Shown: in pieces, positions 51,754 through 56,916 of the stretch
How the letters are laid out: each line of letters begins with the position of its first letter
How positions within the stretch are numbered: the first letter of the stretch is position 1
Assembly (NCBI RefSeq): GCF_000231115.1
Contig: NW_006889843.1
Location: 1-64,000 of the forward strand
From: Vittaforma corneae ATCC 50505
Taxonomy: Eukaryota; Microsporidia; Nosematidae
Length of the DNA stretch: 64,000 nt
Direction: 5' to 3'
Made by a program: the position numbers and the translations under genes
The notes under the pieces: model-generated
The model's database searches: none
The model's input: only the letters and a program-made list of their open reading frames with translations
What the model was told of the DNA's origin: nothing

Positions 51754-52191
51754 TTAGTGAACGGCCTCCTTAATTTCAAATGCAATCATGCACCCAACAC
51801 CAGCAACAACAATGGCCTCTCTTTCAGGCAGCTTGTTTTCGACCACAAACAGATTCTTGTCGTTTCCTAAGTCAAGATCCACATCAGAAACGAGAAAGTC
51901 AGCCAGAATCGTGTTGGAGTCGTATTTTATAAGAAACTTCCCATTTTCTGTTGTAACTGTGCACTTATTATTAGACTCTGCTATCTCAACTCCCATATTT
52001 TTTGCCTGTTCATAGCACTTCTGGTTATACTCGTCTCTAGTTGCATCTAATCCCGGCACAAAAGTACATTTGTAGTCCAAGGCAAAACTATGACGAATGA
52101 CCAAGTGCCTTATATTGGCAGTGAAGAGATAAATTGCACAGGTATATGTTGCAGGAGAGTCTCCCAGGATCACAATTCTTTTTTCAGCCAT
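51754..52191 (-). CDS. Miniature thioredoxin-reductase-like protein lacking the NADPH domain
   Basis: A 145-residue protein whose two ends match the FAD domain of thioredoxin reductase: RIVILGDSPATYTCAIYLFT plus FVPGLDATRDEYNQKCYEQA from the first half, and LPEREAIVVAGVGCMIAFEI, the usual family C-terminus, from the second. The inserted NADPH domain with the redox CxxC, about 120 residues in the family, is absent, as are the ATG and GD motifs; the dinucleotide loop is GDSPAT rather than GSGPAG. The reading frame is open and continuous. It is most likely non-catalytic, perhaps a flavin- or protein-binding remnant. Start at 52191; an upstream in-frame ATG at 52254 adds a hydrophobic stretch. 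Confidence 0.7.
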   Translation of the reverse strand: MAEKRIVILGDSPATYTCAIYLFTANIRHLVIRHSFALDYKCTFVPGLDATRDEYNQKCYEQAKNMGVEIAESNNKCTVTTENGKFLIKYDSNTILADFLVSDVDLDLGNDKNLFVVENKLPEREAIVVAGVGCMIAFEIKEAVH

Positions 52192-52475
52192 GCAAAATTT
52201 GGCTGGAAAAATTTTTAAGAAATAAAAGAGATACTTGGACACATCAAAGGACATTTATTAAACTAGCCAGACACGTTTATTGAAAATAGAAAACCTATAA
52301 CCACGATCTATTTGTCCTGTGCAAATAGAGTCAAGATGGGTAATATCAGAAATAAAAAAGCTGCAATATTTGATAGACTATGTGGAGGTGGCTGTGCTCG
52401 TCTAGATAAGCCATCCAACAGACAAGGTTGTTTATTTTTATTAAATATCCGCACATTTCAAACCCTAAGTGGGAA

Positions 52476-56186: not shown

Positions 56187-56448
56187 TGGGGTTAAAATAG
56201 AAGTGACTCAAAACCATTAGGCGGAAAGCAATATTAGAAATAAGACACCTATGCACAGTATTCCAGTAATGTTTTGCTAGCCTGAATACAATTATGCAAT
56301 TTAGTACTGCAAATAAGCTTGAAAACAGTCACGTAGATTCTAGAGGCGGCCTTGATGTATCCTTCCATTTGGCTCATTTTACTGCAGATTTACTTCCCTG
56401 TCAATACTTTCTTACTGATCTTGCATCGATCTATTGTGCATCCCCAAA

Positions 56449-56916
56449 ATGGTGAGGATGCCGAGAACAAACAACGATAGCTCAGACTTTGACGACTCTG
56501 ATGATGAGTTTATGAAGACGTACACAAAGAATCTTATGAAAAGACTCTCAAACTTTCAGGAATACACAGACGAGGAAGAGCTGATTGATCTTACGACAGA
56601 AAGGAAGATAATTGTGCATTTTTACTCACCTGCCTTCAAAAAGTGCCAGAAAATGAACGAAGCATTGAAACAGGTTTCTGTGAAATTCCCAAGCCTGAAT
56701 TTTGGATGCATTAACGTTGAAAAATGCCCCAAAATGTGTGCTTCGTTGAAAATAAAGGTTCTGCCGTTTTTGGCATTCTTCAAGGATGGATTTTTTGTAG
56801 ATGAGATTGTTGGGTTTGAAAAATTTGGAAACTGCAATATTTTGAAGATAGAAATGTTAGAAGAGTACATTAAGGAGAGTGAAATGTGCAGGAACACAGG
56901 AATAAATAGTAATTGA
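56449..56916 (+). CDS. PLP1: Phosducin-like thioredoxin-fold protein (TXNDC9/Plp1)
   Basis: PLP3-group proteins modulate the CCT chaperonin during tubulin folding. The 155-residue protein has an acidic start (SSDFDDSDDEF), a helix and the conserved thioredoxin-fold core: RKIIVHFYSPAFKKCQKMNE, CINVEKCPKMCASLKIKVLP, FFKDGFFVDEIVGFEKFGN. The order matches TXNDC9. The redox CxxC is absent, as expected in this family. Starts at TCCCCAAAATG. Confidence 0.82.
   Translation: MVRMPRTNNDSSDFDDSDDEFMKTYTKNLMKRLSNFQEYTDEEELIDLTTERKIIVHFYSPAFKKCQKMNEALKQVSVKFPSLNFGCINVEKCPKMCASLKIKVLPFLAFFKDGFFVDEIVGFEKFGNCNILKIEMLEEYIKESEMCRNTGINSN

Follow-up and report, generated by a model that had tools for sequence, protein, structure and literature searches.

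A conserved thioredoxin reductase-like protein without the NADPH domain in Vittaforma corneae and related microsporidia

The first 64,000 nucleotides of contig NW_006889843.1 of the microsporidian Vittaforma corneae ATCC 50505 (RefSeq assembly GCF_000231115.1), hereafter the window, contain a short gene that raises the question of what a thioredoxin reductase (TrxR) becomes when its NADPH domain, with the CxxC motif, is absent. The encoded protein, here called mini-TrxR, belongs to a conserved family of short proteins related to the flavin adenine dinucleotide (FAD) domain of TrxR, and sequence and predicted fold make it reasonably probable that the family consists of old, non-catalytic pseudoenzymes that act by binding a partner or ligand. 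Microsporidia shed genes, and nonetheless those that carry the family kept this TrxR core, minus its catalytic half, at near-constant length. The family would thus be a clear example from nature of a redox enzyme turned pseudoenzyme, and its product is small enough that production and assay should present little difficulty.

A short gene and its conserved family

The gene lies on the minus strand and runs without interruption for 145 codons from an ATG at 52191 to a stop codon ending at 51754, in agreement with the initial annotation, which had described the frame as open, while the single plus-strand frame that was translated across this interval contains two stops. A second in-frame ATG is found upstream, at 52254; 28 of the 30 family members described below begin within three residues of the ATG at 52191, and the other two, P0025 and P0018, 9 and 24 residues earlier. 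Codon usage is gene-like, with a score of 0.304 in frame versus -0.10 to 0.09 in the remaining five frames, the training set being 12 genes of the window with scores of their own of 0.19-0.38. The gene has a single match in its own genome (2.9 Mb, 35 contigs), which rules out a second copy there, and a chance open reading frame is excluded because homologs exist elsewhere.

A protein search returned 15 homologs, and a profile search 29 besides the window protein (142-168 residues, 39-77% identity, all with E <= 1.2e-35), with no further relatives up to E 1 among 1491 candidates of about 80-254 residues, a length range that fusions to larger proteins would escape. The window protein and its 29 homologs form the family set of 30 used throughout, and the homologs match the expectation in the initial annotation of conserved orthologs of the same length. 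A source gives names to six of the 29. Those of Glugoides intestinalis (GINT2_001231), Pancytospora philotis (PAPHI01_0103), and Enteropsectra breve (ENBRE01_1889), the homologs with a species name, are all called "hypothetical protein", and P0004, P0009, and P0011 (143-144 residues) are labelled "thioredoxin reductase" by one source. The latter three lack the NADPH domain and any CxxC, and thus some annotation credits them with a reductase that mini-TrxR probably is not.

In one study, V. corneae, Enteropsectra, and Pancytospora are sister to Enterocytozoon (PMC10393165), and in another Glugoides is placed in Enterocytozoonida (PMC12449221); following these placements, the four identified holders belong to a single order, Enterocytozoonida. 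TrxRs are listed for Ecytonucleospora hepatopenaei, Enterospora canceri, Nosema, Vairimorpha, Encephalitozoon, Hamiltosporidium, and Dictyocoela, and under one code that reads as Antonospora. No mini-TrxR bears the name of any of these, a weak negative given that only about one quarter of the database proteins are named. Scans of viral and genome contig collections gave no relatives and hence no ortholog DNA for synteny or for the ratio of nonsynonymous to synonymous substitution rates (dN/dS).

Of the 142 well-filled columns of the family alignment, 21 show no variation and 38 are conserved to 90% or more, whereas 200 uniform-rate simulations under the LG model on the fitted tree gave means of 0.3 and 6.5 and maxima of 3 and 14, respectively. 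The proteins are thus under site-specific constraint, in the sense of uneven rates among sites and not of dN/dS, and a neutral substitution pattern is unlikely. In the three named species, mini-TrxRs share 40-42% identity with one another and 17-22% with the TrxR of their own species, whereas the TrxRs share 58-63% along their full length, or 55-61% when only the shared columns are counted. This pattern indicates heavy change on the stem of the family followed by constraint, although in these species mini-TrxRs still evolve faster than TrxRs.

Kinship with thioredoxin reductase and the missing segment

The window protein matches the TrxR model TIGR01292 (NCBIfam) over residues 5-94 with an E-value of 9.9e-5, at 21.3 bits, below the curated cut-off of 343.45, and Pyr_redox_2 (PF07992) with an E-value of 0.013, at 15.4 bits, below the gathering threshold of 26.1; across the family, 25 of the 30 members match Pyr_redox_2 at E <= 1, the best at 5.6e-6. 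When PDB sequences were searched with the window protein, TrxRs made up most of the top matches, and a second short, colinear C-terminal stretch was present in all four alignments shown. With the profile of the 30 members, the best PDB match was a TrxR (E 3.7e-7), residues 121-140 were paired colinearly with residues 289-308 of 4up3, and this C-terminal stretch (289-308) was the best-scoring one against both 4up3 and 4a5l. Profile-profile comparison with 16 full-length TrxRs gave 96% probability over 103 N-terminal columns, the C-terminal piece lying outside the alignment. Rab-8A, beta-fructosidase, and other weak PDB and Pfam matches were dismissed as chance.

The residue comparisons below set the 30 mini-TrxRs against 61 full-length TrxRs (P0032-P0093, 295-355 residues), which rank above the first named archaeal match and were taken as microsporidian, 10 of them bearing a species name. 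In the alignment used for counting, residues ~116-267 of the full-length P0037 have no counterpart in mini-TrxR; a smaller alignment sets the right edge elsewhere, so the exact position of the junction is ambiguous. The NADPH domain is absent from all 30 members. The TrxR motif C[AS][IV]C, present in 61 of 61 TrxRs, falls in the missing segment, and a CxxC of any kind occurs in one family member (CDGC in P0012) and not in the window protein. The proposal that the NADPH/CxxC domain is gone and the two FAD parts are joined therefore holds as to the domain, but the loss is somewhat larger than was stated and the GPGGQL loop is shortened too. The features of the gene are collected in Table 1.

Table 1. 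Features of the mini-TrxR gene in the window (residue numbers refer to the window protein)
Feature	Position	Strand	Basis
mini-TrxR coding sequence, ATG to stop, 145 residues; putative FAD-domain-only pseudoenzyme	51754..52191	-	open reading frame, homologs, codon score
GDSPAT, residues 10-15, replacing GSGPAA, the FAD pyrophosphate loop	52147..52164	-	alignment, counts
Cys18; Cys in 30/30 mini-TrxRs, Ala in 92% of 61 TrxRs	52138..52140	-	column counts
Residues 33-43, shortened and rebuilt loop relative to TrxR GPGGQLTTTT; carries Tyr40 and Cys42	52063..52095	-	alignments
Cys42; Cys in 30/30 mini-TrxRs, Val (1.00) in 61 TrxRs	52066..52068	-	column counts
Cys59; Cys in 28/30 mini-TrxRs (others Ser, Thr), Met in 98% of 61 TrxRs	52015..52017	-	column counts
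Junction, residues 106-109; P0037 ~116-267 absent (NADPH domain, CxxC, start of second FAD segment)	51865..51876	-	alignments; edge ambiguous
Residues 123-141 (EREAIVVAGVGCMIAFEIK), corresponding to the C-terminal RQA..AA..GC helix of TrxR	51769..51825	-	alignments
Cys134; Cys in 30/30 mini-TrxRs, 47/61 TrxRs	51790..51792	-	column counts

Structure prediction, which the initial annotation had suggested as a check, gave a model with the TrxR FAD-domain fold that matches TrxRs over nearly its whole length in VIA-align, the near full-length matches being a result of that program and not of Foldseek. TTHA0370 (PDB 2cvj, 180 residues) is near the top of the structural matches with both programs, which also list a clostridial FFTR (6gnc, 6gnd), GliT, HlmI, and DepH.

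The fold is accompanied by damage to the motifs that serve FAD. The flavin-binding loop is altered, as had been noted: GxGxx[GA] is found in none of the 30 mini-TrxRs, Asp11 is present in 29, and the position of the second glycine, a Gly in 60 of 61 TrxRs, is Ser or Thr in all 30, the third position being already Ala in 60 of 61 TrxRs. The TG of the ATG motif is present in all 61 TrxRs, and its remnants in the 30 mini-TrxRs amount to one Gly and two Thr. None of the 30 has the Gly of the GD motif, whereas 15 keep its Asp, although not the window protein; hence the reported loss of ATG and GD applies to most of TG and to the whole of the Gly, but not to the Asp. Within the C-terminal helix, a Gln found in 61 of 61 TrxRs is replaced by Glu125 in 29 of the 30. 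Taken as a set, GxGxx[GA], GGQL, ATG, GD, and RQA are not retained, with partial persistence of the Asp of GD and of Arg or Lys at 124.

With conservation of at least 90% in both families as the threshold, eight columns hold the same residue (G10, P13, Y16, P46, G47, A126, A130, and G133) and nine hold different ones, the changes from TrxR to mini-TrxR being S to D11, A to C18, T to L38, T to Y40, V to C42, G to K52, M to C59, I to V101, and Q to E125. Another 21 columns reach 90% in mini-TrxRs only, although some of their residues, among them Q62 and C134, are also frequent in TrxR, and 91 TrxR-conserved columns are below 90% in mini-TrxRs, 33 of them still filled in most members.

A search with TIGR01292 located the full-length TrxR of V. 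corneae on contig 3 (160106-161015), in two overlapping frames that score 223.6 and 119.2 bits, each below the cut-off on its own. A separate gene thus exists elsewhere in the genome, as had been suggested for checking, and mini-TrxR as the sole TrxR gene of the organism is ruled out. The break sits in a homopolymer-rich stretch; the C-terminal frame corresponds to VICG_00567 of V. corneae ATCC 50505 (100% identity over 96% of its length), a protein of 195 residues that begins within the second frame and shows the same truncation. Relatives carry full-length TrxR proteins, and the break may be a sequencing error or a real loss. All four identified holders of mini-TrxR have a full-length TrxR gene, frame-broken in the window genome.

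A probable pseudoenzyme and the competing explanations

Like low-Mr TrxR (TrxB/TRR1; TIGR01292), mini-TrxR has the FAD elements in the same order, with an N-terminal beta-alpha-beta unit and a C-terminal R.A..AG.GC helix, but unlike it lacks the NADPH domain and the TrxR CxxC, has damaged FAD motifs, and has nine columns fixed anew. The missing domain excludes both the use of NADPH and the dithiol of TrxR, and flavin use is unlikely because the second glycine is lost, an Asp stands by the phosphate site, GPGGQL is missing, ATG and GD are damaged, and the Gln has become Glu. The most probable course, in our view, is that a TrxR-type gene lost the NADPH/CxxC domain together with part of the second FAD segment, and that the leftover FAD-domain core was retained in Enterocytozoonida as a small folded protein whose flavin-reductase function would have disappeared with the FAD motifs. 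The former flavin and phosphate places would be occupied by side chains of the protein itself, namely Asp11 and Ser12 at the start of helix 1, Tyr40, Cys42, and Glu125; this filling of the pocket is proposed from alignment to TrxR positions, not from distances, the contact positions being those of TrxB. Several fixed residues at old cofactor contacts suggest a pocket rebuilt for stability or for a new ligand or partner, and binding most likely takes place through this pocket and the neighbouring helices. The absence of flavin and of reductase activity and the action by binding are inferred, and the term non-catalytic in the earlier view of a reductase converted into a small protein is read from the lost motifs; the fold and the lost catalytic parts otherwise support that view.

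Several observations weigh against this pseudoenzyme interpretation. G10 and P13, remnants of an FAD motif, are retained in 30 of 30 members, Arg or Lys precedes the replaced Gln in 26, and the Asp of GD, still found in 15 members, weakens the interpretation and strengthens that of an altered flavin site. Moreover, Foldseek aligned most of the listed TrxRs over only ~100-125 columns with a template modelling (TM) score of ~0.5, residues 41-50 have a mean pLDDT of 66 in the model of the window protein (85 in that of E. breve), and the rate test speaks to uneven constraint among sites rather than to dN/dS.

The retained cysteines may point to a more specific function, according to which C18, C42, C134, and mostly C59, in or beside the former flavin pocket, would form a thiol or metal site that binds a metal or cluster or contains a switchable disulfide, so that mini-TrxR could be a redox sensor or metal carrier instead of a pure adaptor. 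This is compatible with a pseudoenzyme as its most specific form, and it is a tentative possibility: of the nine columns fixed to a new residue, three now hold Cys, all 30 members have C18, C42, and C134, and the window protein has five Cys in 145 residues compared with 2.2% in 12 other window proteins, but Cys in place of Ala, Val, and Met may reflect packing of the core, two members have Ser or Thr instead of C59, C134 is ancestral, and CxxC occurs in a single member. The stricter proposal, that the emptied pocket is a cysteine site (C18, C42, and C134, with C59 and D11 near) for a metal, an iron-sulphur cluster, or sulfur species, is doubtful; if true, a flavoenzyme core would have turned into a small carrier or sensor within one microsporidian order. 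Low-Mr TrxR homodimerises via its FAD domains, and mini-TrxR could thus pair with a full-length TrxR subunit as a regulator, an explanation that overlaps with the pseudoenzyme one. The presence of a TrxR gene in the four holders and the shared fold of the dimerising domain are in its favour, whereas the conservation of only eight residues alike in both families, which look structural, the 17-22% identity to the TrxR of the same species, and the TrxRs of other named microsporidia for which no mini-TrxR was found by name make it rather unlikely.

Altered binding of FAD or another nucleotide, in a small flavin protein as TTHA0370 may be, agrees with the intact fold, with G10 and P13, with A14 in 25 of 30 members, with the basic residue at 124, with the Asp of GD, and with the near-top match of 2cvj. 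Nevertheless, the loss of the second glycine in every member, the Asp that 29 members carry by the phosphate site, the absence of the GPGGQL loop, the loss of TG in most and of the Gly of GD in all, and Glu at the flavin site render it improbable. An assembly deletion is ruled out by 29 homologs of the same length in other records, and a recent pseudogene by those homologs and by column conservation far above the uniform-rate expectation; no direct support for either was found, the split TrxR shows only that small assembly errors are possible, and the chance that one of them accounts for the gene is negligible. Thus, neither a lack of orthologs nor an assembly deletion, outcomes that the initial annotation had named as refuting, occurred.

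TTHA0370, a "thioredoxin reductase-related protein" of Thermus thermophilus that presumably carries FAD, resembles mini-TrxR in having the FAD-domain part without the NADPH domain, but is bacterial and shares 16-20% identity with it (VIA-align). Furthermore, the family profile retrieved 43 PDB sequences at E <= 10, none of which is 2cvj, and likeness of fold alone does not settle descent. FFTR, GliT, HlmI, and DepH are flavoenzymes that use the TrxR fold with a changed electron donor or chemistry and, unlike mini-TrxR, retain the second domain (target lengths 278-318). Rab GDI/REP has a flavoprotein-like fold without flavin that serves protein binding; it belongs to another flavoprotein branch and is an analogy only, with no kinship claimed. 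TTHA0370 is listed among oxidoreductases structurally similar to flavin-dependent halogenases (PMC4859513), and on this basis it may not be a TrxR descendant. The earlier statement that no described family is like it stands insofar as no description of mini-TrxRs was found in the portions of the open-licence literature consulted, but a FAD-domain-only, TrxR-related protein had already been solved as 2cvj.

Origin of the family and other redox genes

Mini-TrxRs are monophyletic, with support of 100/100 in IQ-TREE (42 rows, 15 of the 30 members, bootstrap not settled) on a stem of ~2.8 changes per column, and of 1.0 in FastTree (142 rows, all 30 members), although the position of the clade within TrxR is unsettled (FastTree support of 0.29-0.97 at seven printed nodes). 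All 30 members have a spacing of 19 residues from P13 to the end of strand 2, compared with 17 in 60 of the 61 TrxRs and 21 in P0089. In a mixed set of 51 lower-ranked TrxRs, the spacing is 19 in 37, 17 in 10, 18 in 3, and 26 in 1. The difference of 19 versus 17 makes mini-TrxR unlike a simple recent copy of a present microsporidian TrxR, and the family probably split before the two-residue shortening or came by transfer from another lineage, although its spacing may also have been lengthened again later. When 118 TrxR rows were ranked by hmmsearch, the best 23 (30.9-44.2 bits) were bacterial- or archaeal-looking and the top microsporidian row scored 29.8, an ambiguous ranking, as other bacterial-looking rows are lower and slow versus fast evolution could produce the order; the spacing is the better origin character. 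The shortening between helix 1 and strand 2 is in itself a possible marker of the microsporidian lineage relative to the lower-ranked, mostly bacterial-looking TrxRs.

Regarding other redox proteins, the genome yielded one peroxiredoxin-type match and five thioredoxin-fold matches; searches for two eukaryotic glutathione-synthesis families came back empty, as did their controls, and therefore carry no information. One thioredoxin-fold protein of 160 residues (PF00085, E 2.1e-9) is encoded in the window on the plus strand at 56434-56916, ~4 kb from mini-TrxR; by eye it is phosducin-like and hence probably unrelated to mini-TrxR. A 326-residue frame on contig 8 with Pyr_redox_2 matches (115265-115756) looks by eye like an adrenodoxin/ferredoxin reductase, distinct from TrxR, and a 174-residue frame on contig 1 (99649-99750) with a dinucleotide-binding start (PF07992, 19.5 bits, below the cut-off) looks by eye like the N-terminal part of a glycerol-3-phosphate dehydrogenase, with a frame that stops prematurely here.
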